Part shown: one piece after another, positions 4,197 through 37,512 of the stretch
How the letters are laid out: each line of letters starts with the position of its first letter
Position numbering within the stretch: position 1 is the stretch's first letter
Notes under the pieces: generated by a model
What the model was told of the DNA's origin: nothing
Databases searched by the model: none
Seen by the model: only the letters and a program-made list of their open reading frames with translations
DNA from: Saccharomycopsis phalli
Lineage: Eukaryota; Ascomycota; Saccharomycetes; Ascoideales; Saccharomycopsidaceae
DNA length: 64,000 bases
Assembly (NCBI GenBank): GCA_020342235.1
Contig: CP073216.1
Location: forward strand, 1,178,001 to 1,242,000
Direction: 5' to 3'
Translations under genes and position numbers: made by a program

Positions 4197-4452
4197 TGTT
4201 GTAATTTGGAAAGCCTTTCTTTAGCTGACATCTTTGATAAACTGTTTGTATTAACTTATTTATCTTATAGGTAAACTACTTACTTATTGTGGGCACATTG
4301 CCTCTTATTTATAGTCCTCTTATAAGCTACGGCGTGTCGTAATGCCGCTTAACTAATGCCATTTAGCTACGGCGTATTGTAATGCCGTTTAGCTAATGCC
4401 GTTTAACCAATGCCGATAGCTAATGCCGTCTCGGATTTTAATCATCACAACA
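4197..4452 (-). repeat. Solo LTR-A in element B
   Basis: 256-bp LTR-A in reverse, flanked by GTTTT at 4192-4196 and 4453-4457. The 5-bp target duplication and the absence of internal sequence make this a solo LTR, left when two LTRs of one element recombined. Confidence 0.95.
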
Positions 4453-5449: not shown

Positions 5450-6053
5450 TGACGTCATACGAAGTATGATACAAGAAGATGGTCACGTGATAAGCGGAAT
5501 AAGCAACATGGGAAGCATAGGCGCCGATCTATGATGATACGCAATATGACTCCGCCACCTCACAGTGGACACGTATATGTGAGAGATGTTGTGATGATTA
5601 AAATTCGAGACGGCATTAGCTACCGGCATTGGTTAAACGGCATTAGCTAAACGGCATTAGCTAAACGGCATTACAATACTCCGTAGCTAAATGGCATTAG
5701 TTAAGCGGCATTACGACACGCCGTAGCTAATAAGAGGACTATAAATAAGAGGCAATGTGCCCACAATAAGTAAGTAGTTTACCAATAAGATAAATAAGTT
5801 AATACAAACAGTTTATCAAAGATGTCAGCTAAAGAAAGACTTTCCAAATTACAACAAGAGATGCAGGTATAAAAGATATTAGTTTAGACCTGAAGATTTT
5901 TAGTTCAAAATAAATATAGTATACGTTTGTAAGATAGCCCGGCACTATCAATAATACCTCGTATCCTACTGAGCTCACTACTACTACTTATTATTTATTT
6001 ATTACTATTAGTGCAAGGTCCCCATCAGAGAAGAGACAACACTAAGTACGTCA
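5450..6053 (+). repeat. LTR-C, 5' LTR of element C, with an inserted LTR-A
   Basis: Starts with the palindrome TGACGTCA and ends TAAGTACGTCA. Without the solo LTR-A at 5587-5856 it is about 329 bp, agreeing with the 332-bp copy at 46849-47180. It has a TATA-like GGTATAAAAG and a purine/TTA-rich 3' part. Confidence 0.9.
5587..5856 (+). repeat. Solo LTR-A in LTR-C
   Basis: 270 bp, flanked by AGAGA at 5582-5586 and 5857-5861. Uninterrupted LTR-C copies (30817-31083 and 46849-47180) show the empty site, confirming the insertion. Confidence 0.95.
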
Positions 6054-10278: not shown

Positions 10279-10741
10279 GGTTATGATGCATCCTGCAAGC
10301 GTCCTGCAGTTCCCCTCTGAATTAACATTGACTGGTCCAGAGACTTATCATGTTTGGATGAAGGAACTCGAGGACTTTCTTTTTGGCTTCGGGGTCGGCT
10401 TACTTCAATACGCCGAAAATGGAACTCTGAGCATTGAACTGAACGATGTCTCGGACATTTCTTCTGCTTTCTTTATTGAACAATTGGATAGCGTGTTTGG
10501 TATTATTCTCAAGGCAAGCATTAGCCAAGAGATTCGCGGAATTATTCGCTCCACGCACTCACGTCTGACTGCTAGAAATCAATTTTTGTTTCTTCAAGAG
10601 AAGTATGGTACTCTTCCACTCCCAGTGGCTCTCACTAGCGCTGGGATTCTGGAAGAAGCTACTAGGCCCACTGAGTTTGTTGACATCAGGGCAATGCTTC
10701 AACGCAAAAATTTGTTGGTTAGACAGCAATTGACTAAGGAG

Positions 10742-10997
10742 TGTTGTAATTTGGAAAGTCTTTCTTTAGCTGACATCTTTGATAAACTGTTTGTATTAAC
10801 TTATTTATCTTATAGGTAAACTACTTACTTATTGTGGGCACATTGCCTCTTATTTATAGTCCTCTTATAAGCTACGGCGTGTCGTAATGCCGCTTAACTA
10901 ATGCCATTTAGCTACGGCGTATTGTAATGCCGTTTAGCTAATGCCGTTTAACCAATGCCGATAGCTAATGCCGTCTCGGATTTTAATCATCACAACA
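10742..10997 (-). repeat. LTR-A (3' LTR of a reverse copy)
   Basis: 256 bp in reverse, followed by the purine tract and the pol 3' end of a minus-strand A copy. It begins inside the gag of the preceding forward copy, just after AGGAG. Confidence 0.93.
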
Positions 10998-13900
10998 CCC
11001 TCCCATAATTAAAATTTCCTCATACCACTCAGCATCCGAAGTTTTTGAAATTGCTCTCTTGATAATCCCTTGGTAAGCATATCAGCTAGCATCTTGTCAG
11101 TAGTTAGGTGTCGTAGTTCAATGTTGCCATTTTTCACATGATGCCTGATAAAGTGATGCTTGATATCAATATGTTTAGTTCGATCATGTGACACTGGGTT
11201 TTTAGCAATATTAACGCAGCTCACATTGTCATCATGAACTATCAATTTTGCCAAGGGGATACCAAGTTCTGCAAACACCTGCTGTAACCATAGAGCATCT
11301 TTAATACCGTCAGTTAATGCCATGTATTCGGCTTCTGCTGTCGACAAAGCAATAGTCGACTGTTTTCTAGATCTCCAAGTAATAGCACCACCGCTATACC
11401 TAAACATGAAACCAGTAGTTGACTTCTTTCCGTCTTATCAGTAGCCCAGTCAGCATCACAATATCCCAAAAAATAATTCCCATGATCCTTTCTGGAATAA
11501 ACAATTTTCATATCCTCTGTTGCCTTCAAATATCTAAGAACACGCTTCGCAGCAACCCAATGCTTTTCCTTTGGAGATTGTAATATCTTGATAACACACC
11601 AACAATATAAGCAATATCAAACCGGACTGTATTAACAGCAAAAAGTAATTTGCCAACCAAGGATCGATACATTGTGGCATCCCAGTCCTTTGAGTCATCA
11701 GTTATAGTTAGATCCTGATTAGGATCCGCTGGTGTGTAGATAGGATTGCAATCTACCATCTGATACTCCTTTAGCATCAGGTGAACATAATCATGAAGAG
11801 AAAGCAGTATTGAGGCCTTATCTTGACTAATGTTCATTCCAAGAAACTTGCTAGCAACTCCTAGGTCTTTCATCTTAAAGTGCAGCATCAATTGAGCTTT
11901 AACCTTATCAATTCAGTCTGATCATTTCCAGCAATGAGAAGATCGTCGACATAAAGTGCGACCATAATAAACAAATTCCCATTTTTCTTAGAATACAAAC
12001 AATACTCCGCAGAGTTTTGCTTAAAACCAATCACATGTAACACTTCATTGATTTTGTCATTCCAAACCATTGGAGCTTGCTTCAAACCATAAATCGACTT
12101 ATTAAGCTTAAGAACATGATCTTCTTTTCCTTTGACCACAAAACCTTCAGGTTGAATCATGTAAAGGTCTTCCCTTAAATCACCATTGAGAAAAGCCGTT
12201 TTCACATCCATCTGATGAATAGTAAGTCTATATCTTGCAGCAATGGACAATGATTCGAATAGAAGCATACCTAAAGACAGGCGCAAAAGTTTCCACATAA
12301 TCAAGCCCTTTAATCTGAGTAAAACCTCTAGCCACAAGTCGTGCCTTGTGTTGACCATCACTCTTAATTGTAAAAACCCAACGGCAAGTGATAGGTCGAC
12401 GACCTTGCTTAGGTGGAACTAACAGAAAAGTCTGATTCTCATAGTGGGCTTCCATTTCCTTTTGAATAGCGTCTTTCCATAAGTAAGCATCATCAGAAGT
12501 AACAGCTTGATCAAATGTCATAGGTACATTCTCAAGAGAATGTTTAGCAGCCATAAAACAAGTAGCAGGATAATTCACACCATTCGTATTCATTTCGGAT
12601 TCATCTGTATCATCTGAGAGTGGCGTCTTAACGGATGTCAGGACACCATCATTAGAAGAACCATTTGTGACAATATCAGAGACACGAGGCTTCTTATCCC
12701 TCCCTGAAGACGAACGGTGGGTAGTAGGATCATGTTCATCAGAACTAAGCGGACCAGGAAAAAGGGGCTTAGGTTGGGAGCCTTTGTGACGGATAAGACG
12801 CTTTTGCGGCAAAGCAGAAGGTGGAGGCGGAGGCGGAGGAGGAGGACCAGCTGAAGTAGATACACCTTCCAGATATCTGAGATCAGAATCCGGGATTTTA
12901 GTATGTGAAATCTTCAGCTTTCCGTAGTACTTATAGATAATCTCATTTTGAGGTGTCTTTGGAAGATTATCAAAAGTAGTCGGAGGTATATCACCACAAA
13001 ACGGGTTATAGTTGGGATCATAGCGCTTAACCCTTGGATATGGGATAGGCCGCTTGTCTGACGGAGACCGATCATACTTGAAGAGATTGTGAGATGAACT
13101 GGAGTTCTTATAATCAATGGGATTGGTGTAAGGAACTTCTTGTGCTTGAGGAGTAGCAGGACGAGACAGTGATGTTTGTTGGGCAACATGATTGTCCAGC
13201 GACAGTGAAGCATCAGACTCCGCAGAAGTAGATTGTGATACATATTTCACAACCTGAAGTTGGGGTGATCCCGAAGTACTACCTGCAACCAGGTCAGTAG
13301 TTCCAGGGATATATTCCAACCGTCTGGGGTCGAGTATCTCTGAGTCACTGATCTCATCCGCATGAGACTCAGGCTCATCTGGTGTGTGCAGAAATCCAGG
13401 GTACGTGATGGCTTCACGACTTGGTTGAGGATCATCAAGGACAAGATGATTCTCATTAGAACCATTAGGATTACTCACATCAATCAGATCAATAGTAGAG
13501 GTCAGGTCAATTTCAGCATCTGAAGCGTCAGCGATGATTAGTTCATTTGACTTCGATGAACCAGAAACAACTAATTCATTTCCAATTTCGCGAGCAGCAG
13601 TGCGAATTAAGGCAGTATTATGATCCCTTAAGTAACCAAGCTCAGATCCAGTATCTTCAGCCAACTCAGACGCATTACCGCATGCATCTGATTTAGATAC
13701 TGTATCATTATCGTCCACTATCAACGAGGTGTCCAGAGGGTCAAGCTCGGATTCAACTATCAATTCATCTCTAGTCATAGAAATAGCTGGCTGAGAATTC
13801 ATAGGTAGAGAATGAATCCCTCCAATCTTTGGATTGCCAACCCCAGAAATTTGAGGAGGATTGATTGTGCTAGTCAGCGCCAGAGACACAGTTGGATAAA

Positions 13901-14398
13901 AAAATTTATCCTCCTCAAAAGTTGCTTGAGCAGCGCAAATAACCTTATTTGTTCTGGGGTCATAGAGTCGATATGCTTTTCGTTGCAATTCATAGCCAAT
14001 CATGACACAAGGAGAGGCTTTAGCATCGAGCTTTCCTTGACGGAGGGCCTTAGGAATAAGAGCATAAGCAACACATCCAAATTCTCGGAGAAATTTGTAG
14101 TTGAATGAGCGACCATACCATCGCTTGTATGTGACATCAAAATCAATAGAGCGTGATGGCGTACAATTAGCCAAAAAAACAGCAGTATTGATTGCTTCAG
14201 GCCAAAGTTGAGCTGGAACATTGGTATGAAGCATAAGAGTGCGGGCTTTATCTTGAAGTGTACGGTTCATTCGTTCGGCAACGCCATTTTGATACGAATG
14301 ATGGGGAACCGTGGTTTCGTGAGAGATGCCACGCTTGGTGAGGAAGTTAGTCAATTCTTCACTCACAAACTCACCTCCATTATCTGTACGGAGAGTAC

Positions 14399-14695: not shown

Positions 14696-14763
14696 ACAGT
14701 TTCTCACATATCTCAGTTAAAGAAATCTCTTCCAAAAAACAACTTATATAACAAAAATATAAA

Positions 14764-14835
14764 CTCCGATACGGGGAATTGAACCCCGATCTGCGCTGTG
14801 AGAGAGCACCGTGCTAGCCATTACACTATATCGGA
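14764..14835 (-). tRNA. tRNA-Glu (CTC)
   Basis: Read on the minus strand it starts TCCGATATAGTG, with anticodon stem GTGCT/AGCGC around the loop CTCTCAC (anticodon CTC), T arm GGTTCAATTCC, acceptor end TATCGGA and discriminator G. It is close to yeast tRNA-Glu and has no intron. A T-rich stretch lies downstream. Gypsy element D begins 15 bp upstream of its 5' end. Confidence 0.93.
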
Positions 14836-14850
14836 ATATTTTATTTAGTT

Positions 14851-15154
14851 TGTAATATTTTAGGTCCGTTAGGGTAATGGGCCTAATAATTACCTCCTTA
14901 TATTATTATTGTTATAATCCGGTTTTCAAGGAAAACAAGCTTACAAGATGTAGGTAAAAGGTTAGTTGGCCATAAGGCCTGGCGTCATGTATTTATAGTT
15001 CTTTCTAGTGGCATCCTTCTCCTCTTTCTCGAGGCTTTGCATGTTGGCTTTTAGATACAACCTGCAGGTTGGCCGCTTACCCTAGGGTAACACGTAGAGT
15101 GATTCACGTGCCAGTCATATACCAAAAGGGAGGTACCGGGAATTGCCCGTTACA
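14851..15154 (-). repeat. LTR-D, 3' LTR of gypsy element D
   Basis: 304 bp, TGTAATATTT to CCGTTACA on the plus strand. On the minus strand the polypurine tract ends right at its border. It lies 15 bp upstream of tRNA-Glu. Related, more diverged copies are at 31825-32089 and 39533-39973. Confidence 0.93.
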
Positions 15155-15187
15155 GTTTCCCCCCTCAAGCGTAGGTCGTCCCTTGAC

Positions 15188-18100
15188 CTACCAAGACTGG
15201 GCGGAATCTAGTTTTTCGAGGTCCTGCATGAGTCGTTCTTTTAGTTCGTCTGGTATCCTTTCAATCCAGCGCGCGGGGATGGTAACAGGTGTTGGTTTAT
15301 CTCTGTAAAGTACCACCGCCGTGTCGTTGTTAATTTCAATAATTAAGACAATCAGTTCTAAGTTTTGTTCATGCCATCCTCCGGTCGCGACAAGTTCCGT
15401 TGGGTAGTATTTCCGTAAGTTCTTCACATTCACCGTTATTCTCTTCCGGGGTCCAACCTGGACTATAAAACTATTAGGATTTTCTGTAGCAGTTAGGCGG
15501 AAGGGACCCTCGAACGGGGATTCGAACTTCTTTTCTTTTTCGGAACCGGTAGAAATGGCTTTTCTGTTTAACAAGGCAACCTCTCCATTTTTAAACGTGA
15601 TGTCAGAGCGATGTTTGTTATATTGATAACTCTGACGGATTTGGGCTTCTGCCATGTTCAGTTTGAGTATTTGGAGCGTCTGATCTTGTATTTCCACAAA
15701 ATGATTTCCGGCGACAATGGGAGGGTCATTGATTAATCGCGTAATATCATATCCCACCACAATTTCCCAATATCTTGGATGGTACCCGAGATCCGCGAAG
15801 AATGGTGTTGTTTTGATGGATTCTTGATATTGGCTATTGTACGCGAATTGGACCACTGGTAACATTCTACACCACAGCTTGCCTTTGGTGTAGCGACATA
15901 TACGTAGGGCTTGTACTAAGTTTCTGTTCATTCTCTCTGTTTGTCCGTCTGTTTGTGGGTGGGCAGAGGTGGATAAGCGGTGATCAATACCCATTCGTTC
16001 CGTGACTGTTTTCCAGAAGTTGTTCACAAACAATGTCCCTCTATCCGATACTAACGTTCTCGGAACGCCATGTTCGCAAATAATATGTTTGAAGAAAAGT
16101 TCCGCAAATTGTTCGGCGGTACATGTTTTCTTACACGGAATGAATTTCGCCCTCTTTGAAAGACGGTCGACCACGACCAATATGCTGTTAAAACCCTCAT
16201 CTTCCGGAAAACCTGAGATAAAGTCCAACGAAAGGTCCGTCCAACGGGCCATAGGAACTTCAAGTGGTTGGGCGAGCCCATTAGGTGGTTGATTAGATGG
16301 TTTAGTAGCCCGGCAGGCCTCACAGCGAAGTAGATGTTTTCGAATAGTTCGCTCCATTCCTGGCCAGTAAAATCCCAGGGCTTGGATTTGACGAGTCATT
16401 TTGTGCGGGCCCATGTGAATGCTGCCGGCGGCGTTATGAAATAAGTGTATGATCTTTGTCTGCCATCGTCCACGTGGCAAACAGACTTTGGTGGTGTCAA
16501 ATTTGGACGTTCTGAAAACCAAAAGTTTGTTGTTGTTAACTTTCTGAATCAGGTAGAACTTCAATAAGGCCTGGTGCTCCTTAGGACACGGGGCGTTTTC
16601 AAATAGGACTTGATACATTAATTTAAAATTGGGGTCTGAGAGGTATTCCTCCTTCTCAATGGGTTGTAAACCTGGGTGTGTGGTGATTTCAGTATATTGT
16701 AATGAAGTGCCGGTATTTGTATTGGCGGTGAAAATGGCGCTGAGCGCACAGCGGCTAAGCGCGTCTGCGGCTCCGTTAAGATGGCCTGATTTGTAGTTGA
16801 TGGTAAAATTAAAGTCGGCAAGGAAGTGGAGCCAACGAATTAAACGTGGATTGTCTTCACTTTTGGAGGAGTTGAGGTATTTTAAAGAGTGATGATCCGT
16901 AAAGACTTCAAAAGGTTTGGTCAAATAGTGTCTCCATTGTCTGAGAGCTAGGACGATAGCGAGTAGTTCTTTTTCTCGCACGGGGTAACGAAGTTGTGCG
17001 TCTTGAAGTTGTTTAGACATATAAGCAACTACGCCTATTGTTGTTCCTTCGTCAGTTAATTGTTCAAGGACGGCTCCTGTAGTATAATTGGACGCGTCCG
17101 CCGTAACTCGGCATGTCAATAAGGGATCAAACACGATCAATGTCGGAGCGGTAGTTAGTGCTGCTTTCAAAGTCACAACCGCCTTTTCTTGTTCTTCCGA
17201 CCATGGTAATTTCTTATTGTAATATGCATGTAGGGGTCTAACAATACTCGCAAAATCGCGAATAAATCGTCGGTAGTAGCTAGCAAGACCGACAAACGAG
17301 CGAGTTTGCTCTGGGGTCTCAACGATGAAGCGACGTACAGCATCGATCTTTTCATCATCCACGTGGATTCCTTTGGCCGAAACGCGGTAGCCAAGGAAAC
17401 TGACATTTTCAAGGTAGAATTCAGATTTCTTGGTGCTAACTGTTAAGCGCGCTTGCCTGAAGACTTCCATCACGGATTGGATATGTCGCGTGTGAGTCGC
17501 CTCGTCAGGTGAGAAGATGAGTACGTCGTCAAGGTACACGACACAAAATGTTTCAAGTGGGAGGAGGAGCTTATTCATAACTGCTTGGAACGTAGCTGGT
17601 GCGTTGCATAATCCAAACGGCATTACGTTCCAACCATACTGACCAAAAGGCGTCACCATGGCTGTCTTGTGTCTGTCCTGTGGTGACACCAAAATTTGAT
17701 GATATCCGCTGACAAGGTCGAGTTTGGAGAAAACTTTAGCTCCGTGTATTAAGTCCAATAGGTCCTCAATACGTGGGAGAGGGAACCGTGATTTCACCGT
17801 GATGTCGTTTAAGCCTCTATAGTCCACGCAAAGGCGTTTGCTTCCGTCTTTCTTTTTGACAAATAACACCGGTGCTCCATAGGGAGACGAGGTGGGGAAG
17901 ATTCGATTGCTTCGAATAAGGTCTTCGATTTGTTCTTTAAGTTCAGCCCTGTTGTCCGGACTCAACCGGTATGGGTGTTTGTAACTGGGTAGACGGCCCG
18001 GAATAATGTGGATGTGATGCATTACCTGTCTAAATGTGGGTCCACCATCTGGTAGTTTTTCGTTAATCACATCCTGATAATCCCGGAGTACCGCTTGCAC

Positions 18101-18292
18101 TTTTGTATTGCGTGCTGTTATGGCCGAGAGGGAGTTAATTTTTAATTGTTGCCGCGAATTTGTCGGGGCCCTCCGGCTGTGAGAGTCTTCTGGCTCACTG
18201 GCTAAATCGCCGACAAATTCAATTAGGTTTGCAGTGTTTTGGTTTGGCGTGTCTCCGCGCGAGATGTTATGAAACGCCGCGGACTTCGTCAT
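15188..18292 (-). CDS. Ty3/gypsy Pol (RT-RNase H-integrase), element D, partial
   Basis: An open frame of about 1034 codons. RT shows FVKKKDGSKRLCVDYRGLND, FSKLDLVSGYHQI, MPFGLCNAPATFQ and the YLDD box (VVYLDDVLIFS). RNase H follows (TADASNYTTGAVL, FTDHHSLKYL). Integrase has the H-H-C-C finger ending CEACRATK and a DDE core (LSLDFISGF, VSDRGTLFV, QTDGQTERMNR). The order RT-RH-IN defines Ty3/gypsy. No clear chromodomain is seen at the C-terminus. Gag and protease are not present. The first residues are simply where the surviving frame opens, not a proven start. Confidence 0.92.
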   Translation of the reverse strand: MTKSAAFHNISRGDTPNQNTANLIEFVGDLASEPEDSHSRRAPTNSRQQLKINSLSAITARNTKVQAVLRDYQDVINEKLPDGGPTFRQVMHHIHIIPGRLPSYKHPYRLSPDNRAELKEQIEDLIRSNRIFPTSSPYGAPVLFVKKKDGSKRLCVDYRGLNDITVKSRFPLPRIEDLLDLIHGAKVFSKLDLVSGYHQILVSPQDRHKTAMVTPFGQYGWNVMPFGLCNAPATFQAVMNKLLLPLETFCVVYLDDVLIFSPDEATHTRHIQSVMEVFRQARLTVSTKKSEFYLENVSFLGYRVSAKGIHVDDEKIDAVRRFIVETPEQTRSFVGLASYYRRFIRDFASIVRPLHAYYNKKLPWSEEQEKAVVTLKAALTTAPTLIVFDPLLTCRVTADASNYTTGAVLEQLTDEGTTIGVVAYMSKQLQDAQLRYPVREKELLAIVLALRQWRHYLTKPFEVFTDHHSLKYLNSSKSEDNPRLIRWLHFLADFNFTINYKSGHLNGAADALSRCALSAIFTANTNTGTSLQYTEITTHPGLQPIEKEEYLSDPNFKLMYQVLFENAPCPKEHQALLKFYLIQKVNNNKLLVFRTSKFDTTKVCLPRGRWQTKIIHLFHNAAGSIHMGPHKMTRQIQALGFYWPGMERTIRKHLLRCEACRATKPSNQPPNGLAQPLEVPMARWTDLSLDFISGFPEDEGFNSILVVVDRLSKRAKFIPCKKTCTAEQFAELFFKHIICEHGVPRTLVSDRGTLFVNNFWKTVTERMGIDHRLSTSAHPQTDGQTERMNRNLVQALRICRYTKGKLWCRMLPVVQFAYNSQYQESIKTTPFFADLGYHPRYWEIVVGYDITRLINDPPIVAGNHFVEIQDQTLQILKLNMAEAQIRQSYQYNKHRSDITFKNGEVALLNRKAISTGSEKEKKFESPFEGPFRLTATENPNSFIVQVGPRKRITVNVKNLRKYYPTELVATGGWHEQNLELIVLIIEINNDTAVVLYRDKPTPVTIPARWIERIPDELKERLMQDLEKLDSAQSW

Positions 18293-18314
18293 AAGGGACA
18301 GTTGTTCTTTCGTG

Positions 18315-18625
18315 TGTTGTGATGATTAAAATCCGAGACGGCATTAGCTATCGGCATTGGTTAAACGGCATTAGCTAAACGGCATTAGCTATCGGCATTG
18401 GTTAAACGGCATTAGCTAAACAGCATTAGCTAAACGGCATTATAATACGCCGTAGCTAAATGGCATTAGTTAAGCGGCATTACGACACGCCGTAGCTTAT
18501 AAGAGGACTATAAATAAGAGGCAATGTGCCCACAATAAGTAAGTAGTTTACCTATAAGATAAATAAGTTAATACAAACAGTTTATCAAAGATGTCAGCTA
18601 AAGAAAGACTTTCCAAATTACAACA
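18315..18625 (+). repeat. LTR-A, 5' LTR of the outer element
   Basis: 311 bp. The U3 contains several shuffled copies of the 14-bp repeat, in a different order from the 3' LTR at 29110. TATA-like ACTATAAATAAG. The gag ATG is at 18591, inside the LTR. Confidence 0.93.
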
Positions 18626-21615
18626 GGTTATGATGCATCCTGCAAGCGTCCTGCAGTTCCCCTCTGAATTAACATTGACTGGTCCAGAGACTTATCATGT
18701 TTGGATGAAGGAACTCGAGGACTTTCTTTTTGGCTTCGGGGTCGGCTTACTTCAATACGCCGAAAATGGAACTCTGAGCATCGAACTGGACGATATCTCG
18801 GACATTTCTTCTGCTTTCTTTATTGAACAATTGGATAGTGTGTTTGGTATTGTTCTCAAGGCAAGTATTAGCCAAGAGATTCGCGGAATTATTCGCTCCA
18901 CGCACTCACGTCTGACTGCTAGAAATCAATTTTTGTTTCTTCAAGAGAAGTATGGTACTCTTCCACTCCCAGTGGCTCTCACTAGCGCTGGGATTCTGGA
19001 AGAAGCTACTAGGCCCACTGAGTTTGTTGACATCAGGGCAATGCTTCAACGCAAAAATTTGTTGGTTAGACAGCAATTGACTAAGGAGGCAATCATTGCA
19101 TTATGGACTTTGGATAACATGATGCAACTTGGTGTGCCATATCCGGTTATCTCAAGCGTGATTAAAGAGCTTGAACACAAGGGGATTACTACTAATACTC
19201 TTCTGTATCAGGTCTTGCATGAGATAACTGGATCGCATGAGTATGTTCGTCTGAACAGTCTTGCACTTTTGGGTCACGATTCTCTGTCTAAGAAGACGTC
19301 CAAACCTCGTCGCAAAGGTAAAAAGAAGGAAAAGCAACAACCATATGATGAAGAGTATCCTCAAGGTATGTTGGCTTATTCCTTCCTTGGACATCTGTTA
19401 CTGATACCAACATTTCTTGATACTGGTGCCAGTGGACATTTCTTCTCTGACATTCGTTTCTTTCAAAACATGATTCCAGAGAATGGCTCTATTCTGGGTG
19501 TTGCTGGAAACCTTGCGATTGTTGGGAAAGGTACAGTTCGGATTTCTACTCCAGCTGGACCTTTTATTCTACATGATGTTGGTTACACTCCTAACGGTAT
19601 TGCTAACCTTATCTCGGTTGGAAAAGCTTCTAATCATAAGTTAGAGTTTCTCTTCAATCATCAAGGTGCCACTATCCGCTCCACCAAGAAAATGTTTGCT
19701 CATCGAGATCCACTTTCAAACCTTTACACTGTTTCATGTGAACCTTCTACTGTGATTCCGAAGCAGATTGCTTACAAGGCTGTGTCCTCTGGCCGTGATA
19801 TTGATCGCTGGCATAGAAGACTTGGCCATCCTAGCGCTTCTGTTATGGCCTCGCTTGTTAAGATTCATCCACTCTGGAAGGCTGGTCAGAGTTTACTGAG
19901 TTGTACCGGATGTATTACTGGTAAAACTGTTGACTCTGCTCCTAAAGAACGGACCACCAATCCTTCTCAGCCACTTGAGTTAGTCCATGTGGATCTTTGT
20001 GGGCCATTTAACTACGGATCCTACGATGCATCTCGGTATTTCTTGACTATTGTTGACGGCTATACAAAATGGACCACTGTTGTTTGCCTCAATAAGAAAT
20101 CTGGATGCACTCAAGGTATCATTAATTTTATTAATACCTCTGAAACAATGTTCCGCAGTAAAGGATTGACTTACTGCGTTGGTACTCTCCGTACAGATAA
20201 TGGAGGTGAGTTTGTGAGTGAGGAATTGACTAACTTCCTCACCAAGCGTGGCATCTCTCACGAAACCACGGTTCCCCATCATTCGTATCAAAATGGCGTT
20301 GCCGAACGAATGAACCGTACACTTCAAGATAAAGCCCGCGCTCTTATGCTTCATACCAATGTTCCAGCTCAACTTTGGCCTGAAGCAATCAATACTGCTG
20401 TTTTTTTGGCTAATTGTACGCCATCACGCTCTATTGATTTTGATGTCCCATACAAACGATGGTATGGTCGCTCTTTCAACTACAAATTTCTCCGAGAATT
20501 TGGATGTGTTGCTTATGCTATTATTCCTAAGGCCCTCCGTCAAGGAAAGCTCGATGCTAAAGCCTCTCCTTGTGTCATGATTGGCTATGAATTGCAACGA
20601 AAAGCATATCGACTCTATGACCCCAGAACAAATAAGGTTATTTGCGCTGCTCAAGCAACTTTTGAGGAGGATAAATTTTTTTATCCAACTGTGTCTCTGG
20701 CGCTGACTAGCACAATCAATCCTCCTCAAATTTCTGGGGTTGGCAATCCAAAGATTGGAGGGATTCATTCTCTACCTATGAATTCTCAGCCAGCTATTTC
20801 TATGACTAGAGATGAATTGATAGTTGAATCCGAGCTTGACCCTCTGGACACCTCGTTGATAGTGGACGATAATGATACAGTATCTAAATCAGATGCATGC
20901 GGTAATGCGTCTGAGTTGGCTGAAGATACTGGATCTGAGCTTGGTTACTTAAGGGATCATAATACTGCCTTAATTCGCACTGCTGCTCGCGAAATTGGAA
21001 ATGAATTAGTTGTTTCTGGTTCATCGAAGTCAAATGAACTAATCATCGCTGACGCTTCAGATGCTGAAATTGACCTGACCTCTACTATTGATCTGATTGA
21101 TGTGAGTAATCCTAATGGTTCTAATGAGAATCATCTTGTCCTTGATGATCCTCAACCAAGTCGTGAAGCCATCACGTACCCTGGATTTCTGCACACACCA
21201 GATGAGCCTGAGTCTCATGCGGATGAGATCAGTGACTCAGAGATACTCGACCCCAGACGGTTGGAATATATCCCTGGAACTACTGACCTGGTTGCAGGTA
21301 GTACTTCGGGATCACCCCAACTTCAGGTTGTGAAATATGTATCACAATCTACTTCTGCGGAGTCTGATGCTTCACTGTCGCTGGACAATCATGTTGCCCA
21401 ACAAACATCACTGTCTCGTCCTGCTACTCCTCAAGCACAAGAAGTTCCTTACACCAATCCCATTGATTATAAGAACTCCAGTTCATCTCACAATCTCTTC
21501 AAGTATGATCGGTCTCCGTCAGACAAGCGGCCTATCCCATATCCAAGGGTTAAGCGCTATGATCCCAACTATAACCCGTTTTGTGGTGATATACCTCCGA
21601 CTACTTTTGATAATC
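18591..21615 (+). CDS. Gag-protease-integrase part of the outer A element
   Basis: Begins at ATG 18591 in the LTR (MSAKERLSKLQQ) and runs through the primer-binding site into Gag. Gag has no CCHC zinc knuckle; a basic stretch (KPRRKGKKKEKQQ, about residues 240-252) may bind RNA instead. The protease motif is FLDTGASGHFF. Integrase has the pre-integrase finger (RWHRRLGHP, CTGCITGK) and the DDE core. There is no frameshift between gag and pol: one frame covers all, as in Ty5 and copia. The reading frame stops where the reverse A element was inserted (21616). Confidence 0.9.
18626..18640 (+). other. Primer-binding site, probable half-tRNA-iMet type
   Basis: Directly after the LTR comes GGTTATGATGCATCC. 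Its first bases, GGTTATG, are complementary to the CATAACC of the initiator tRNA anticodon loop and stem. Copia and Ty5 are known to prime from the cut 5' half of initiator tRNA in this way. The same sequence follows the LTR at 10279 and, in reverse, ends at 26849. The tRNA itself is not in the window, so the match is from general knowledge. Confidence 0.6.
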
Positions 21616-21898
21616 TGTTGTAATTTGGAAAGTCTTTCTTTAGCTGACATCTTTGATAAACTGTTTGTATTAACTTATTTATCTTATAGGTAAACTACTT
21701 ACTTATTGTGGGCACATTGCCTCTTATTTATAGTCCTCTTATAAGCTACGGCGTGTCGTAATGCCGCTTAACTAATGCCATTTAGCTACGGCATATTGTA
21801 ATGCCATTTAGCTACGGCCTATTGTAATGCCGTTTAGCTAATGCCATTTAGCTAATGCCGTTTAGCTAATGCCGTCTCGGATTTTAATCATCACAACA
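21616..21898 (-). repeat. LTR-A, 3' LTR of the nested reverse element
   Basis: 283 bp, identical by eye to 26850-27132. The purine tract CCCTCCCATA (reverse) follows on its right. Confidence 0.95.
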
Positions 21899-24800
21899 CC
21901 CTCCCATAATTAAAATTTCCTCATACCACTCAGCATCCGAAGTTTTTGAAATTGCTCTCTTGATAATCCCTTGGTAAGCATATCAGCTAGCATCTTGTCA
22001 GTAGTTAGGTGTCGTAGTTCAATGTTGCCATTTTTCACATGATGCCTGATAAAGTGATGCTTGATATCAATATGTTTAGTTCGATCATGTGACACTGGGT
22101 TTTTAGCAATATTAACGCAGCTCACATTGTCATCATGAACTATCAATTTTGCCAAGGGGATACCAAGTTCTGCAAACACCTGCTGTAACCATAGAGCATC
22201 TTTAATACCGTCAGTTAATGCCATGTATTCGGCTTCTGCCGTCGACAAAGCAATAGTCGACTGTTTTCTAGATCTCCAAGTAATAGCACCACCGCTATAC
22301 CTAAACATGAAACCAGTAGTTGACTTTCTTTCCGTCTTATCAGTAGCCCAGTCAGCATCACAATATCCCAAAAGATAATTCCCATGATCCTTTCTGGAAT
22401 AAACAATTTTCATATCCTCTGTTGCCTTCAAATATCTAAGAACACGCTTCGCAGCAACCCAATGCTTTTCCTTTGGAGATTGTAAATATCTTGATAACAC
22501 ACCAACAATATAAGCAATATCAAAACGGACTGTATTAACAGCAAAAAGTAATTTGCCAACCAAGGATCGATACATTGTGGCATCCCAGTCTTTGAGTCAT
22601 CAGTTATAGTTAGATCTGATTAGGATCCGCTGGTGTGTAGATAGGATTGCAATCTACCATCTGATACTCCTTTAGCATCAGGCGAACATAATCATGAAGA
22701 GAAAGCAGTATTGAGGCCTTATCTTGACTAATGTTCATTCCAAGAAACTTGCTAGCAACTCCTAGGTCTTTCATCTTAAAGTGCAGCATCAATTGAGCTT
22801 TAACCTTATCAATTTCAGTCTGATTATTTCCAGCAATGAGAAGATCGTCGACATAAAGTGCGACCATAATAAACAAATTCCCATTTTTCTTAGAATACAA
22901 ACAATACTCCGCAGAGTTTTGCTTAAAACCAATCACATGTAACACTTCATTGATTTTGTCATTCCAAACCATTGGAGCTTGCTTCAAACCATAAATCGAC
23001 TTATTAAGCTTAAGAACATGATCTTCTTTTCCTTTGACCACAAAACCTTCAGGTTGAATCATGTAAAGGTCTTCCCTTAAATCACCATTGAGAAAAGCCG
23101 TTTTCACATCCATCTGATGAATAGTAAGTCTATATCTTGCAGCAATGGACAACATGATTCGAATAGAAGCATACCTAATGACAGGCGCAAAAGTCTCACA
23201 TAATCAAGCCCTTTAATCTGAGTAAAACCTCTAGCCACAAGTCGTGCCTTGTGTTGACCATCACTCTTAATTGTAAAAACCCAACGGCAAGTGATAGGTC
23301 GACGACCTTGCTTAGGTGGAACTAACAGAAAAGTCTGATTCTCATAGTGGGCTTCCATTTCCTTTTGAATAGCGTCTTTCCATAAGTAAGCATCATCAGA
23401 AGTAACAGCTTGATCAAATGTCATAGGTACATTCTCAAGAGAATGTTTAGCAGCCATAAAACAAGTAGCAGGATAATTCACACCATTCGTATTCATTTCG
23501 GATTCATCTGTGTCATCTGAGAGTGGCGTCTTAACGGATGTCAGGACACCATCATTAGAAGAACCATTTGTGACAATATCAGAGACACGAGGCTTCTTAT
23601 CCCTCCCTGAAGACGAACGGTGGGTAGTAGGATCATGTTCATCAGAACTAAGCGGACCAGGAAAAAGGGGCTTAGGTTGGGAGCCTTTGTGACGGATAAG
23701 ACGCTTTTGCGGCAAAGCAGAAGGTGGAGGCGGAGGCGGAGGAGGAGGACCAGCTGAAGTAGATGCACCTTCCAGATATCTGAGATCAGAATCCGGGATT
23801 TTAGTACGTGAAATCTTCAGCTTTCCGTAGTACTTATAGATGATCTCATTTTGGGTGTCCTTGGAAGATTATCAAAAGTAGTCGGAGGTATATCACCACA
23901 AAACGGGTTATAGTTGGGATCATAGCGCTTAACCCTTGGATATGGGATAGGCCGCTTGTCTGACGGAGACCGATCATACTTGAAGAGATTGTGAGATGAA
24001 CTGGAGTTCTTATAATCAATGGGATTGGTATAAGGAACTTCTTGTGCTTGAGGAGTAGCAGGACGAGACAGTGATGTTTGTTGGGCAACATGATTGTCCA
24101 CGACAGTGAAGCATCAGACTCCGCAGAAGTAGATTGTGATACATATTTCACAACCTGAAGTTGGGGTGATCCCGAAGTACTACCTGCAACCAGGTCAGTA
24201 GTTCCAGGGATATATTCCAACCGTCTGGGGTCAGATATCTCTGAGTCACTGATCTCATCCGCATGAGACTCAGGCTCTTCTGGCGTGTGCAGAAATCCAG
24301 GGTACGTGATGGCTTCACGACTTGGTTGAGGATCATCAAGGACAAGATGATTCTCATTAGAACCATTAGGATTACTCACATCAATCAGATCAATAGTAGA
24401 GGACAGGTTAATTTCAGCATCTGAAGCATCAGCGATAGTTAGTTCATTTGACTTGGATGAACCAGAAACGACTAATTCATTTCCAATTTCGCGAGCAGCA
24501 GTGCGAATTAAGGCAGTATTATGATCCCTTAAGTAACCAAGCTCAGATCCAGTATCTTCAGCCAACTCAGACGCATTACCGTATGCATCTGATTTAGATA
24601 CTGTATCATTATCGTCCACTATCAACGAGGTGTCCAGAGGGTCAAGCTCGGATTCAACTATCAATTCATCTCTAGTCATAGAAATAGCTGGCTGAGAATT
24701 CATAGGTAGAGAATGAATCCCTCCAATCTTTGGATTGCCAACCCCAGAAATTTGAGGAGGATTGATTGTGCTAGTCAGCGCCAGAGACACAGTTGGATAA

Positions 24801-26849
24801 AAAATTTATCCTCCTCAAAAATTGCTTGAGCAGCGCAAATAACCTTATTTGTTCTGGGGTCATAGAGTCGATATGCTTTTCGTTGCAATTCATAGCCAAT
24901 CATGACACAAGGAGAGGCTTTAGCATCGAGCTTTCCTTGACGGAGGGCCTTAGGAATAATAGCATAAGCAACACATCCAAATTCTCGGAGAAATTTGTAG
25001 TTGAAAGAGCGACCATACCATCGTTTGTATGGGACATCAAAATCAATAGAGCGTGATGGCGTACAATTAGCCAAAAAAAACAGCAGTATTGATTGCTTCA
25101 GGCCAAAGTTGAGCTGGAACATTGGTATGAAGCATAAGAGCGCGGGCTTTATCTTGAAGTGTACGGTTCATTCGTTCGGCAACGCCATTTTGATACGAAT
25201 GATGGGGAACCGTGGTTTCGTGAGAGATGCCACGCTTGGTGAGGAAGTTAGTCAATTCTCACTCACAAACTCACCTCCATTATCTGTACGGAGAGTACCA
25301 ACGCAGTAAGTCAATCCTTTACTGCGGAACATTGTTTCAGAGGTATTAATAAAATTAATGATACCTTGAGTGCATCCAGATTTCTTATTGAGGCAAACAA
25401 CAGTGGTCCATTTTGTATAGCCGTCAATAATAGTCAAGAAATACCGAGATGCATCGTAGGATCCGTAGTTAAATGGCCCACAAAGATCCGCATGGACTAA
25501 CTCAAGTGGCTGAGAAGGATTGGTGGTCCGTTCTTTAGGAGTAGAGTCAACAGTTTTACCAGTAATACATCCGGTACAACTCAGTAAACTCTGACCAGCC
25601 TTCCAGAGTGGATGGATCTTAACAAGCGAGGCCATAACAGAAGCGCTAGGGTGGCCAAGTCTTCTATGCCAGCGATCAATATCACGGCCAGAGGACACAG
25701 CCTTGTAAGCAATCTGCTTCGGAATCACAGTAGAAGGTTCACATGAAACAGTGTAAAGGTTTGAAAGTGGATCTCGATGAGCAAACATTTTCTTGGTGGA
25801 GCGGATAGTGGCACCTTGATGATTGAAGAGAAACTCTAACTTATGATTAGAAGCTTTTCCAACCGAGATAAGGTTAGCAATACCGTTAGGAGTGTAACCA
25901 ACATCATGTAGAATAAAAGGTCCAGCTGAGTAGAAATCCGAACTGTACCTTTCCCAACAATTGCAAGGTTTCCAGCAACACCCAGAATAGAGCCATTCTC
26001 TGGAATCATGTCTTGAAAGAAACGAATGTCAGAAAGAAATGTCCACTGGCACCAGTATCAAGAAATGTTGGTATCAGTAACAGATGTCCAAGGAAGGAAT
26101 AAGCCAACATACCTTGAGGAGACTCTCATCATATGGTTGTTGCTTTCCTTCTTTTTACCTTTGCGACGAGGTTTGGACGTCTTCTTAGACAGAGAATCGT
26201 GACCCAAAAGTGCAAGACTGTTCAGACGAACATACTCATGCGATCCAGTTATCTCATGCAAGACCTGATACAGAAGAGTATTAGTAGTAATCCCCTTGTG
26301 TTCAAGCTCTTTAATGACGCTTGAGATAACCGGATATGGCACACCAAGTTGCATCATGTTATCCAAAGTCCATAATGCAATGATTGCCTCCTTAGTCAAT
26401 TGCTGCCTAACCAACAAATTTTTGCGTTGAAGCATTGCCCTGATGTCAACAAACTCAGTGGGCCTAGTAGCTCTTCCAGAATCCCAGCGCTAGTGAGAGC
26501 CACTGGGAGTGGAAGAGTACCATACTTCTCTTGAAGAAACAAAAATTGATTTCTAGCAGTCAGACGTGAGTGCGTGGAGCGAATAATTCCGCGAATCTCT
26601 TGGCTAATACTTGCCTTGAGAACAATACCAAACACGCTATCCAATTGTTCAATAAAGAAAGCAGAAGAAATGTCCGAGATATCGTCCAGTTCGATGCTCA
26701 GAGTTCCATTTTCGGCGTATTGAAGTAAGCCGACCCCGAAGCCAAAAAGAAAGTCCTCGAGTTCCTTCATCCAAACATGATAAGTCTCTGGACCAGTCAA
26801 TGTTAATTCAGAGGGGAACTGCAGGACGCTTGCAGGATGCATCATAACC

Positions 26850-27132
26850 TGTTGTAATTTGGAAAGTCTTTCTTTAGCTGACATCTTTGATAAACTGTTT
26901 GTATTAACTTATTTATCTTATAGGTAAACTACTTACTTATTGTGGGCACATTGCCTCTTATTTATAGTCCTCTTATAAGCTACGGCGTGTCGTAATGCCG
27001 CTTAACTAATGCCATTTAGCTACGGCATATTGTAATGCCATTTAGCTACGGCCTATTGTAATGCCGTTTAGCTAATGCCATTTAGCTAATGCCGTTTAGC
27101 TAATGCCGTCTCGGATTTTAATCATCACAACA
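26850..27132 (-). repeat. LTR-A, 5' LTR of the nested reverse element
   Basis: 283 bp. On its left lies the complement of the primer-binding site and the gag start. The target duplication TAATC follows at 27133. Confidence 0.95.
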
Positions 27133-29098
27133 TAATCTTCCAAAGACACCTCAAAATGAGATTATCTATAAGTACTACGGAAAGCTGAAGATTTCACATA
27201 CTAAAATCCCGGATTCTGATCTCAGATATCTGGAAGGTGTATCTACTTCAGCTGGTCCTCCTCCTCCGCCTCCGCCTCCACCTTCTGCTTTGCCGCAAAA
27301 GCGTCTTATCCGTCACAAAGGCTCCCAACCTAAGCCACTTTTTCCTGGTCCGCTTAGTTCTGATGAACATGATCCTACTACCCACCGTTCGTCTTCAGGG
27401 AGGGATAAGAAGCCTCGTGTCTCTGATATTGTCACAAATGGTTCTTCTAATGATGGTGTCCTGACATCCGTTAAGACGCCACTCTCAGATGACACGGATG
27501 AATCCGAAATGAATACGAATGGTGTGAATTATCCTGCTACTTGTCTTTTGGCTGCTAAGCATTCCCTTGAGAATGTACCTATGACATTTGATCAAGCTGT
27601 TACTTCTGATGATGCTTACTTATGGAAAGATGCTATTCAAAAGGAAATGGAAGCCCACTATGAGAATCAGACTTTTCTGTTAGTTCCACCTAAGCAGGGT
27701 CGTCGACCTATCACTTGCCGTTGGGTTTTTACAATTAAGAGTGATGGTCAACACAAGGCACGACTTGTGGCTAGAGGTTTTACTCAGATTAAAGGACTTG
27801 ATTATGTGGAGACTTTTGCACCTGTCATTAGGTATGCTTCTATTCGAATCATGTTGTCCATTGCTGCAAGATATAGACTTACTATTCATCAGATGGATGT
27901 GAAAACGGCTTTTCTCAATGGTGATTTAAGGGAAGACCTTTACATGATTCAACCTGAAGGTTTTGTGGTCAAAGGAAAAGAAGATCATGTTCTTAAGCTT
28001 AATAAGTCGATTTATGGTTTGAAGCAAGCTCCAATGGTTTGGAATGACAAAATCAATGAAGTGTTACATGTGATTGGTTTTAAGCAAAACTCTGCGGAGT
28101 ATTGTTTGTATTCTAAGAAAAATGGGAATTTGTTTATTATGGTCGCACTTTATGTCGACGATCTTCTCATTGCTGGAAATGATCAGACTGAAATTGATAA
28201 GGTTAAAGCTCAATTGATGCTGCACTTTAAGATGAAAGACCTAGGAGTTGCTAGCAAGTTTCTTGGAATGAACATTAGTCAAGATAAGGCCTCAATACTG
28301 CTTTCTCTTCATGATTATGTTCACCTGATGCTAAAGGAGTATCAGATGGTAGATTGCAATCCTATCTACACACCAGCGGATCCTAATCAGGATCTAACTA
28401 TAACTGATGACTCAAAGGACTGGGATGCCACAATGTATCGATCCTTGGTTGGCAAATTACTTTTTGCCGTTAATACAGTCCGGTTTGATATTGCTTATAT
28501 TGTTGGTGTGTTATCAAGATATTTACAATCTCCAAAGGAAAAGCATTGGGTTGCTGCGAAGCGTGTTCTTAGATATTTGAAGGCAACAGAGGATATGAAA
28601 ATTGTTTATTCCAGAAAGGATTATGGGAATTATCTTTTGGGATATTGTGATGCTGACTGGGCTACTGATAAGACGGAAAGAAAGTCAACTACTGGTTTCA
28701 TGTTTAGGTATAGCGGTGGTGCTATTACTTGGAGATCTAGAAAACAGTCGACTATTGCTTTGTCGACGGCAGAAGCCGAATACATGGCATTAACTGACGG
28801 TATTAAAGATGCTCTATGGTTGCAGCAGGTGTTTGCAGAACTTGGTATCCCCTTGGCAAAATTGATAGTTCATGATGACAATGTGAGCTGCGTTAATATT
28901 GCTAAAAACCCAGTGTCACATGATCGAACTAAACATATTGATATCAAGCATCACTTTATCAGGCATCATGTGAAAAACGGCAACATTGAACTACGACACC
29001 TAACTACTGACAAGATGCTAGCTGATATGCTTACCAAAGGATTATCAAGAGAGCAATTTCAAAAACTTCGGATGCTGAGTGGTATGAGGAAATTTTAA
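27133..29098 (+). CDS. RT-RNase H part of the outer A element
   Basis: Frame open from the border of the nested element to the stop at 29098. It shows the polyproline linker, the RT with YVDD and RNase H as in element A1, differing from A1 by only a few bases. It has no start codon of its own; its natural upstream part lies left of the nested insertion. Confidence 0.88.
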
Positions 29099-29109
29099 TT
29101 ATGGGAGGG

Positions 29110-29421
29110 TGTTGTGATGATTAAAATCCGAGACGGCATTAGCTAAACGGCATTAGCTATCGGCATTGGTTAAACGGCATTAGCTAAACGGCATTAGCTA
29201 AATGGCATTAGCTAAACGGCATTAGCTAAACGGCATTACAATATGCCGTAGCTAAATGGCATTAGTTAAGCGGCATTACGACACGCCGTAGCTTATAAGA
29301 GGACTATAAATAAGAGGCAATGTGCCCACAATAAGTAAGTAGTTTACCTATAAGATAAATAAGTTAATACAAACAGTTTATCAAAGATGTCAGCTAAAGA
29401 AAGACTTTCCAAATTACAACA
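29110..29421 (+). repeat. LTR-A, 3' LTR of the outer element
   Basis: 312 bp after the purine tract ATGGGAGGG. It has the longest run of the 14-bp U3 repeat in the window. Gypsy LTR-D sequence follows directly at 29422. Confidence 0.94.
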
Positions 29422-29564
29422 CATCCTTCTCCTCTTTCTCGAGGCTTTGCATGTTGGCTTTTAGATACAACCTGCAGGTTGGCCGCTTACCCTAGGGTAA
29501 CACGTAGAGTGATTCACGTGCCAGTCATATACCAAAAGGGAGGTACCGGGAATTGCCCGTTACA
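29422..29564 (-). repeat. LTR-D, remaining end of the 5' LTR of element D
   Basis: 143 bp identical to 15012-15154. The target duplication TAGTT follows at 29565-29569. Confidence 0.92.
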
Positions 29565-29568
29565 TAGT

Positions 29569-29950
29569 TGTAACGATAAAATATCGTTTACACTAGACAC
29601 GTGGAATACACGTGTTGGTCACATGGCATGACACGTGAACATCACATGTCAACGTGCGGATAAGGGATGATGCCGATAGTGACGAGAAGGGAAATCAAAA
29701 CACTGTTGAATGGAAGGACGAGTCAGGAAGAATCCCAAAAGGGATTTGAGGCAACCCTTAATTAAGGAAGTAACCCTGTCTCTGGAGTAATATAAATACA
29801 GAAGGAAATAGCTAATAAATCATCAAGTAACTTAGAGATATATTCTGAGATAACTTTACAACTTATATCTTGTAGTTAACAATACTTCATATTGTTAATT
29901 AGCCAGTTTATAAGTGATTGTAACGATACCACCAGGATTTTATCGTTACA
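29569..29950 (+). repeat. LTR-E (gypsy type), recombinant copy
   Basis: 382 bp, TGTAACGATAAAAT to ATTTTATCGTTACA: 14-bp inverted ends. TATA-like ATATAAATACAG gives the orientation. It differs by about two bases from the copy at 36565-36946. Left flank ATAGT and right flank AACTT do not match, unlike in the other copy. It ends 13 bp before tRNA-Val. Confidence 0.9.
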
Positions 29951-29963
29951 AACTTTAAATTAC

Positions 29964-30037
29964 GGTTTCATGGTCTAGTAGGTTATGGCATCTGCTTAAC
30001 ACGCAGAACGTCCCCAGTTCGATCCTGGGTGAAATCA
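29964..30037 (+). tRNA. tRNA-Val (AAC), copy 1
   Basis: 74 nt, GGTTTCATGGTC to GTGAAATCA. Anticodon stem TCTGC/GCAGA with loop TTAACAC (anticodon AAC), T arm CAGTTCGATCCTG. No intron, followed by a T run. It matches yeast tRNA-Val(AAC) closely and is identical to the copy at 36960. Confidence 0.95.
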
Positions 30038-30159
30038 TTTTTAGCATTTTTTTGTAGCGATTTAATATGTAGTGCATATGATTAACTCAATTGATGTTGA
30101 CCGGAGAGTAAGAACAATAAATATACTGGAACTTGACTGATATCATACGTGATACGAAG

Positions 30160-30516
30160 TGTCGTAAGCTAGCGTTTCTCTCAATGGCTTTCATATCTTA
30201 CTATTGTAGATATTCTTATTCTTGTTACTATACTAACTATTTCCTGTTCTATTTATATTCTTTCTGAGATGCCTTCAGTTATCTTTATCTCATGACATCA
30301 TTATTAGTATGACCTCATATTATTATCAGTTCACTATTAGTATGACCTGATAACTTTATTAGATTGCTAATACTATGACCTCATACTCTTAATATACCAT
30401 AAACAGTATGATATCATGGTACTGAAGGATTGCTATTTCTCAATACCAGCTTATTTATCATGCATGATGTATATCACCATGCATTAACTCCTTCAATACT
30501 TTCAGCACTTTCAACA
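30160..30516 (-). repeat. LTR-F (copia type), copy in the duplicated block
   Basis: 357 bp, TGTCGTAAGC to CTTTCAACA. Flanks CGAAG and GATAG do not match, while the sister copy at 37156-37512 has CGAAG on both sides. Confidence 0.85.
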
Positions 30517-35316: not shown

Positions 35317-36183
35317 CATTGAATGCATATATTTGATAAATTACAAATATCATTTATTTAAGGACTTTACGCTACAATACCTTAGAAATTTATATTAACT
35401 TGTCAGACTGCCACTCGCACCCACTCTATAACAGTCTCCTAAATAAGGTTCCACAATAGAGCCGAAATCATTGCTTCCTTTTCAGGATGTAAAGACATAC
35501 CGCTAAACAAAGGAATAGAAAACAGATGCCCAAACTGACTAAGAGTCATGGATCAAACTATTAATTTCTCATTCTATGATACAAGGGCTCTATACCTCAT
35601 CAACCAAGTTGGATTCAATGGCTCTTTTGAAGAGACAAAGAGAGACGTTACCTATAGAAATGATCCTACTTAAAAACTATTAGTAATCAAATGATAATCT
35701 AATATAGTTGGTGCGCTACTTACTGAAGTACGTCGACAAAGAAAAAAAATATCTGGGAAATGGTTCATCTTATATAGTAGTTTGGTTATTACCCGGAAAA
35801 GAAAATTTTTGCCTACAGTGCATGATGCATGCAATTCTAACTGAAATGCTATAATAATTAAGAAGTGGCGGCGTAATGAATCCACAAATAGATTAACGGT
35901 TGTTGACGATCTATGCACATCGCGGCAGAGCAGTGGCATTATCTATGAGATAAAATTATGTAGGCGAGTAGATAGACACATTGACTACCTTACAATTAGA
36001 CTGGAAGTCTAAATACTTGAGCAGGAAGGCGTTGACTACACTTTAATAATGACTACCATTTGTTGGGTAAAATCAGAGTTATTTATCAACAATGGAAATA
36101 TGTATATTAATATACATAAAAAAAATTTTTTTTAATTTTAAACAAACCCACCATTACTGTGGCTCGCAAAATACATTTTCAAA
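35317..36183. other. AT-rich stretch without recognised features
   Basis: No convincing coding frame, LTR end or RNA gene was seen. The longest frame (35670-35939, minus) has no recognisable domain and is probably chance. Confidence 0.5.
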
Positions 36184-36558: not shown

Positions 36559-36564
36559 AAACTT

Positions 36565-36946
36565 TGTAACGATAAAATATCGTTTACACTAGACACGTGG
36601 GATACACGTGTTGGTCACATGGTATGACACGTGAACATCACATGTCAACGTGCGGATAAGGGATGATGCCGATAGTGACGAGAAGGGAAATCAAAACACT
36701 GTTGAATGGAAGGACGAGTCAGGAAGAATCCCAAAAGGGATTTGAGGCAACCCTTAATTAAGGAAGTAACCCTGTCTCTGGAGTAATATAAATACAGAAG
36801 GAAATAGCTAATAAATCATCAAGTAACTTAGAGATATATTCTGAGATAACTTTACAACTTATATCTTGTAGTTAACAATACTTCATATTGTTAATTAGCC
36901 AGTTTATAAGTGATTGTAACGATACCACCAGGATTTTATCGTTACA
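36565..36946 (+). repeat. LTR-E (gypsy type), solo, with target duplication
   Basis: 382 bp, flanked by AACTT at 36560-36564 and 36947-36951. It ends 13 bp upstream of tRNA-Val. This is the intact parent-like copy of the LTR at 29569. Confidence 0.93.
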
Positions 36947-36959
36947 AACTTTAAATTAC

Positions 36960-37033
36960 GGTTTCATGGTCTAGTAGGTTATGGCATCTGCTTAACACGC
37001 AGAACGTCCCCAGTTCGATCCTGGGTGAAATCA
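36960..37033 (+). tRNA. tRNA-Val (AAC), copy 2
   Basis: Identical to the gene at 29964-30037, with the same downstream T run. It belongs to the copy of the duplicated block that keeps its target duplications. Confidence 0.95.
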
Positions 37034-37155
37034 TTTTTAGCATTTTTTTGTAGCGATTTAATATGTAGTGCATATGATTAACTCAATTGATGTTGACCGG
37101 AGAGTAAGAACAATAAATATACTGGAACTTGACTGATATCATACGTGATACGAAG

Positions 37156-37512
37156 TGTCGTAAGCTAGCGTTTCTCTCAATGGCTTTCATATCTTACTAT
37201 TGTAGATATTCTTATTCTTGTTACTATACTAACTATTTCCTGTTCTATTTATATTCTTTCTGAGATGCCTTCAGTTATCTTTATCTCATGACATCATTAT
37301 TAGTATGACCTCATATTATTATCAGTTCACTATTAGTATGACCTGATAACTTTATTAGATTGCTAATACTATGACCTCATACTCTTAATATACCATAAAC
37401 AGTATGATATCATGATACTGAAGGATTGCTATTTCTCAATACCAGCTTATTTATCATGCATGATGTATTTCACCATGCATTAACTCCTTCAACACTTTCA
37501 GCACTTTCAACA
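37156..37512 (-). repeat. LTR-F, solo, with target duplication
   Basis: 357 bp, flanked by CGAAG at 37151-37155 and 37513-37517. No internal sequence. Confidence 0.92.

Follow-up and report, generated by a model that had tools for sequence, protein, structure and literature searches.

In Scheffersomyces stipitis, clusters of the long terminal repeat (LTR) retrotransposon Tps5 and of LARD elements, ca. 20-40 kb each, are reported at the regional centromeres, and recombination between the copies in a cluster has been proposed to reshape the genome there (PMC8546629). These centromere elements have been termed Ty5-like (PMC12711049, PMC7263194). Ty5-like elements are also reported to cluster at the centromeres of Cyberlindnera sargentensis, Wickerhamomyces anomalus, and other yeasts, and one Wickerhamomyces isolate is described as having LTRs of one family inside LTRs of another (PMC12711049). 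Within the genus Saccharomycopsis, S. schoenii has an oversized copia locus of 12.4 kb, for which the authors suggest a possible nested insertion (PMC13148404). Here, we analyze a nest of retrotransposons in Saccharomycopsis phalli, which lies in a 64,000-bp stretch of contig C5 (C5:1178001-1242000, hereafter the window). The assembly comprises 14,148,124 bp in 8 contigs (C1 to C8). We worked with the assembled sequence and its open reading frames, and positions are those of the window unless a contig is named.

Four families matter here: A, which is Ty5-like; D, which is Ty3-like; B, a further family; and E, represented in the nest by a solo LTR of 382 bp. A preliminary description of the window read the nest as a D element that was interrupted by one forward A, which was interrupted in turn by one reverse A. 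The nest is real and well preserved, and such clusters are already known in other yeasts, but the middle step has to be revised. We propose that the locus is part of a Ty5-like cluster at a probable centromere and that D was followed by two A insertions, which were fused by recombination, and by a reversed A. We would put the probability of this whole reading at about 0.68.

The middle layer of the nest

The outer A copy (18315-29421, forward strand) has intact termini at both of its outer junctions, but it has no target-site duplication: it is flanked by TCGTG on the left and by CATCC on the right. Its 5' LTR (18315-18625, 311 bp) and its 3' LTR (29110-29421, 312 bp) are also unlike each other. 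A pairwise alignment of the two gives 4 mismatches in 298 positions plus two indels, and a multiple alignment gives 15 mismatches in 310 positions. The left LTR is just one mismatch away from six 311-bp LTRs on C1.

A stretch of D on C1 shows what the sequence looks like without A. In C1:2053326-2056179, D is uninterrupted at both of the points where the outer A begins and ends, and it runs from pol through gag to the 5' LTR. It reads TTTCGTG-CCCCAC at the first point and TAGTGG-CATCC at the second. Relative to this copy, D in the window is missing 1438 bp of gag and protease as well as 161 bp of the 5' LTR, and the missing segment is bounded exactly by the ends of A.

The preliminary scheme, with a single forward A inserted in D and a single reverse A inside it, accounts for the intact termini at the outer junctions and for the duplications around D (TAGTT) and around the inner A (TAATC). 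It does not account for an outer A that lacks a duplication, for its diverged LTRs, or for a 1.6-kb gap in D that ends exactly where A does, as a deletion after the insertion would need to stop precisely at the end of the LTR. So, we consider this scheme very unlikely.

Instead, we propose that D inserted next to an older solo LTR of family E, at a site 14 bp upstream of a tRNA-Glu gene. Two A elements would then have entered D in the same orientation: one in the coding region, where it duplicated TCGTG, and the other in the 5' LTR, where it duplicated CATCC. Recombination between the two would have deleted the intervening 1.6 kb of D, so that a single composite A remained. Another A, of a type with 283-bp LTRs, would have inserted in reverse into A sequence (duplicating TAATC), either before or after the recombination. 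Thus, the order that was first proposed (D, A, and A again) holds for its first and last steps, but the middle step requires at least two A insertions and a recombination event, or else a collapsed assembly.

In support of this proposal, we paired 15 A copies by hand and compared their flanks and LTRs. The six copies with matching flanks have 0, 0, 1, 0, 0, and 0 mismatches between their LTRs, while the nine copies without matching flanks have 4, 0, 2, 3, 6, 0, 1, 0, and 5 (one-sided Mann-Whitney test, P = 0.024, n = 15 copies that, owing to duplicated blocks on C1, are not independent). Several other points weigh against our proposal. First, four of the nine copies with unmatched flanks show 0-1 mismatch between their LTRs, the LTRs of one copy whose flanks do match differ in length by 41 bp, and a mosaic A copy on C6 lies outside the 15. 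Second, the A copies are mosaic throughout, and an individual point of crossover cannot be picked out. Third, the A clusters are not found once per contig (C1 has two and C8 has no listed match). Finally, the analysis rests on assembled sequence, in which wrongly joined A repeats would mimic recombination.

This last point leads to the main rival explanation, which is that two separate A copies in D were joined by the assembler via their near-identical sequence and the D sequence between them was dropped. The internal sequences of A copies are about 98-99% alike. Also, between the inner copy and the C3 copy of the same type there are 12 one-base indels but just 5 substitutions, as expected for poorly polished repeats, and the two clusters on C1, one of which has large near-exact duplications, may signal trouble with the assembly. 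We searched the whole assembly for the junctions that are expected if the lost piece of D survives, and each gave 0 hits with up to 2 mismatches, but the absence of these junctions is equally expected from a collapse. On the other hand, nothing at this locus points directly to a misjoin, and the duplications of D and of the inner A are intact on either side. Overall, we think that a collapse is unlikely and we favor recombination between the two A copies.

We also considered other kinds of exchange. An exchange that retained the D segment elsewhere finds no support, as its partner junctions are absent from the assembly. CAAAA lies to the left of the A copy at C1:784643 and to the right of the copy at C6:253345, which could have indicated an interchromosomal exchange. 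However, this is a single match of an A-rich 5-mer among many unmatched flanks, and one of the two copies, that on C6, is a mosaic too (it has a 311-bp 5' LTR with the flank AGGCC), so we view the match as probable chance. Within the window, AGGAG occurs at 3950 and at 10737-10741, as if two partners had been split, but we take this to be chance as well because the A sequence that follows AGGAG differs.

We also compared the outer A to other A copies in 300-bp steps. (The comparison used few copies, and it covered the clusters on C2, C3, and C6 in part and those on C4 and C7 as short loci.) From 20715 to 21614, the outer A has 0 mismatches to the copy at 10742-14398 in all three steps. From 27133 to 28632, the nearest copy is the one that ends at 3949 (0, 1, 0, 0, and 1 mismatches), although other copies match equally well in four of the five steps. 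Both of these copies are in the same cluster as the outer A, which is compatible with local exchange.

Family A and the inner copy

The 5' part of the internal region of the outer A (18626-21615, forward strand) encodes a Ty5-type Gag and an integrase (Pfam PF17241, rve, and SH3_retrovirus), and its reading frame is open up to the inner insertion. The 3' part (27138-29109, forward strand) encodes the reverse transcriptase (Pfam RVT_2). The match to PF17241 has E = 6.5e-15 with translation table 12 and 2.6e-13 with table 1. Given this Gag and the order of integrase before reverse transcriptase, the sequence identifies A as a Ty5-like element of the Ty1/copia group. A single gag-pol frame of 1669 amino acids is intact in three copies on C1. 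Directly after the 5' LTR is GGTTATGA, which by its position is a putative primer-binding site. A primer site from the anticodon stem of the initiator tRNA has been called diagnostic (PMC12711049).

The inner A (21616-27132, reverse strand) has LTRs of 283 bp (21616-21898 and 26850-27132) that are identical (0 mismatches in 283), and it is framed by TAATC (21611-21615 and 27133-27137), both as originally described. Another A copy has no interruption at the insertion site, as 1-1721 and 1715-3806 of the window align across it.

The reading frame of the inner A is broken by one-base indels. The copies with 283-bp LTRs on C5, C3, and C1 (window 21616-27132, L034, and L015; L numbers denote loci) all have identical LTRs and many internal one-base indels. 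The numbers of one-base indels and substitutions are 12 and 5 between C5 and C3, 16 and 18 between C5 and C1, and 10 and 27 between C3 and C1. We rejected the idea that the inner A is a decayed element, as indels outnumber substitutions relative to the C3 copy, although not relative to the C1 copy. The indels are likely to be consensus errors, possibly from a lack of polishing, even though homopolymers of 4 or more hold just 6 of the 31 indel columns.

The outer frame

On the left, the nest begins near a tRNA-Glu (CTC) gene (14763-14836, reverse strand, identified by ARAGORN and by Rfam tRNA), whose 5' end is 14 bp from the D insertion. D lies on the reverse strand. The left copy of its target-site duplication (TAGTT, 14846-14850) is followed by a complete LTR of 304 bp (14851-15154), which is the 3' LTR in the orientation of D, and by the internal region (15155-18314), whose frame for reverse transcriptase, RNase H, and integrase is truncated at 18314 by A. 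On the far side of A are a 143-bp remnant of the other LTR (29422-29564) and the right copy of TAGTT (29565-29569). The remnant is 100% identical to the last 143 bp of the complete LTR (15012-15154). So, the frame and the agreement of the D LTRs are as first reported. The accompanying suggestion that all three steps were recent, which rested on the agreement of LTRs, holds for D and for the inner A. For the outer A, the LTRs give no date, as they are probably derived from two separate insertions.

The preliminary description overlooked a further layer: the last T of the right TAGTT is also the first base of a solo LTR of family E (29569-29950, forward strand, 382 bp). This LTR lies 13 bp upstream of a tRNA-Val (AAC) gene (29964-30037, forward strand, ARAGORN), and it is older than the D insertion at its edge. 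E is probably Ty3-like, given its adjacency to the tRNA gene and the D-like pol near two copies on C1. The block at 29568-30516, which includes the tRNA-Val gene, has a second copy in direct orientation at 36564-37512, from which it differs at 5 of 949 positions. The repeated block runs from the E LTR to ...CAACA, which resembles the end of another LTR.

The pol region of D in the window matches the Pfam families RVT_1, RT_RNaseH, and Integrase_H2C2 (the match to rve is below the curated cut-off), and the copy on C1 matches Ty3_capsid (6.6e-11; the frame at C1:2055030 is D gag). Together, these place D among the Ty3-like elements. Ty3 of Saccharomyces cerevisiae integrates upstream of tRNA genes (PMC7175516). 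We examined 11 LTRs of D or D-like elements, which we drew from 36 matches after setting aside short LTR fragments and distant relatives. Seven of the 11 (those in the window, at 288 kb on C6, at C1:792742, and at L037, L039, L040, and L041) have the 5' end of a tRNA gene 12-14 bp away, as measured from the tRNA itself and not from the transcription start that is used by the target rule for Ty3. The other four (L038, L042, L043, and C1:2055873) do not lie at this distance from a tRNA gene.

Genome-wide clustering and the centromere

The listed matches to A all fall in eight places in the genome: C1 at ~775-814 kb, C1 at ~2046-2139 kb, and one place on each of C2 to C7. All 45 matches to the internal sequence of A are in these clusters (40 of 44 candidates were scored). 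The same is true for all 100 LTR ends among the matches listed (of 134), for all 100 LTR starts among the matches listed (of 120), and for 94 of 94 LTR starts with at most one mismatch. C8 has no A match among the matches listed. We checked the full span of the C5 cluster and of both C1 clusters. The C5 cluster (C5:1169551-1218455, 48.9 kb) contains no non-transposon frame of 200 or more amino acids. Of the C1 clusters, one is 62.8 kb long and has two unassigned frames, and the other is 102.8 kb long. The single frame that had been flagged as a possible gene, at C1:2055030, is the gag of D.

The most natural explanation is that the nest belongs to a Ty5-like cluster at the probable centromere of C5, and we infer that the targeting of A causes the clustering. 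Because A lands almost only in clusters, with new copies falling on old ones, A would be expected to nest within itself. Alternatively, the cluster could have no connection to the centromere and be a sink for retrotransposons, as any silent and gene-poor region might be. The two clusters on C1 and the lack of a listed match on C8 would be consistent with this. However, LINE (long interspersed nuclear element) copies and Ty3-like relatives of D also occur outside of the A clusters, while six of the eight contigs each have their A matches in a single place, in agreement with the centromere clusters described in the literature. So, a sink seems unlikely, and a centromeric cluster remains our preferred explanation.

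C1 deserves further comment. It is 2.335 Mb long, and each end has telomere-like repeats (GGATGTGC units). Its two clusters are 1.23 Mb apart, and both of them contain young A copies. Unless C1 is misjoined, this chromosome might have two regions of the centromere type, both of which still draw Ty5-like insertions and one of which was perhaps silenced or made latent after a chromosome fusion; we consider this to be quite unlikely. C8 has telomere-like repeats at one end and 18S ribosomal DNA (recognized by eye) at the other.

Nesting elsewhere in the genome

Solo A LTRs with duplications are present in the window at 4197-4452 (GTTTT) and 5587-5856 (AGAGA), and solo A LTRs lie inside A just to the left of the window (CCAGC) and on C2 (GTTCC). 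A lies within B at two sites on C1. GAAAA, the duplication at the first of these sites, frames a tandem A dimer (C1:2107517-2118208) and is also seen in swapped partners; AAGGC, the duplication at the second site, is seen in swapped partners only, among the copies that we read. Also, the three near-identical D copies with annotated internal sequence (on C5, C6, and C1) are each cut by A, at different points. As A interrupts other copies of A, B, and D, deep nesting is normal in this genome. The expectation that such nests are rare in compact yeast genomes is therefore misleading, especially as Ty5-like clusters at centromeres have been published.

The region of C1 from 2061 to 2139 kb (L022-L029) has large near-exact duplications about 29.8 kb apart, inverted blocks, and tandem A-A dimers that share one LTR. 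The duplications may reflect misassembly or a recent segmental rearrangement.

Genetic code and other features

We compared the CTG codons of four genes in the window or its flanks to each gene's best match in PDB. Of 16 aligned positions, 6 have serine, 2 have leucine, and 8 have other residues. Serine is found at 3 of 4 positions in the Esa1-like gene and at both positions in the PTPA-like gene; the MEF1-like gene has 1 serine and 1 leucine at 7 positions, and the Noc4-like gene has no serine and 1 leucine at 3 positions. With just 6 serines to 2 leucines at the 16 positions, the comparison favors CTG as serine but falls short of proof, so we describe this yeast as probably CUG-Ser.

A U3 small nucleolar RNA gene (35398-35680, reverse strand, Rfam) lies at the edge of the retrotransposon cluster. 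LINE-like remnants at 43336-44745 and 47712-48593 were named by eye and have no Pfam match; the first has near-identical copies on several contigs, some of them near contig ends. Finally, tandem arrays with units of 12, 17, and 8 bp (60350-60757 and 61086-61346) lie upstream of a WD-repeat gene.

Comparison to known systems

At base resolution, the nest illustrates how clusters of Ty5-like elements at probable yeast centromeres may grow as elements insert into older copies and erode as copies recombine. It also illustrates why target-site duplications should be examined before LTR divergence is used as a clock: where an apparent element has LTRs from two separate insertions, their divergence is misleading.

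As in S. stipitis, the locus is a cluster of LTR retrotransposons, but here the stack includes a Ty3-like element and the centromere is predicted from sequence. (The two species are different: the S. stipitis xylose reductase has a 64% match in this genome.) The copies in C. sargentensis are reported to be all non-functional (PMC12711049), whereas three of the A copies that we examined retain the 1669-amino-acid frame. D shares with Ty3 the Ty3_capsid domain, reverse transcriptase, RNase H, a zinc-binding integrase, and insertion just upstream of tRNA genes. Lastly, the nesting suggested for S. schoenii was deduced from the length of the locus (PMC13148404), whereas in S. phalli the junctions can be read at the level of single bases.

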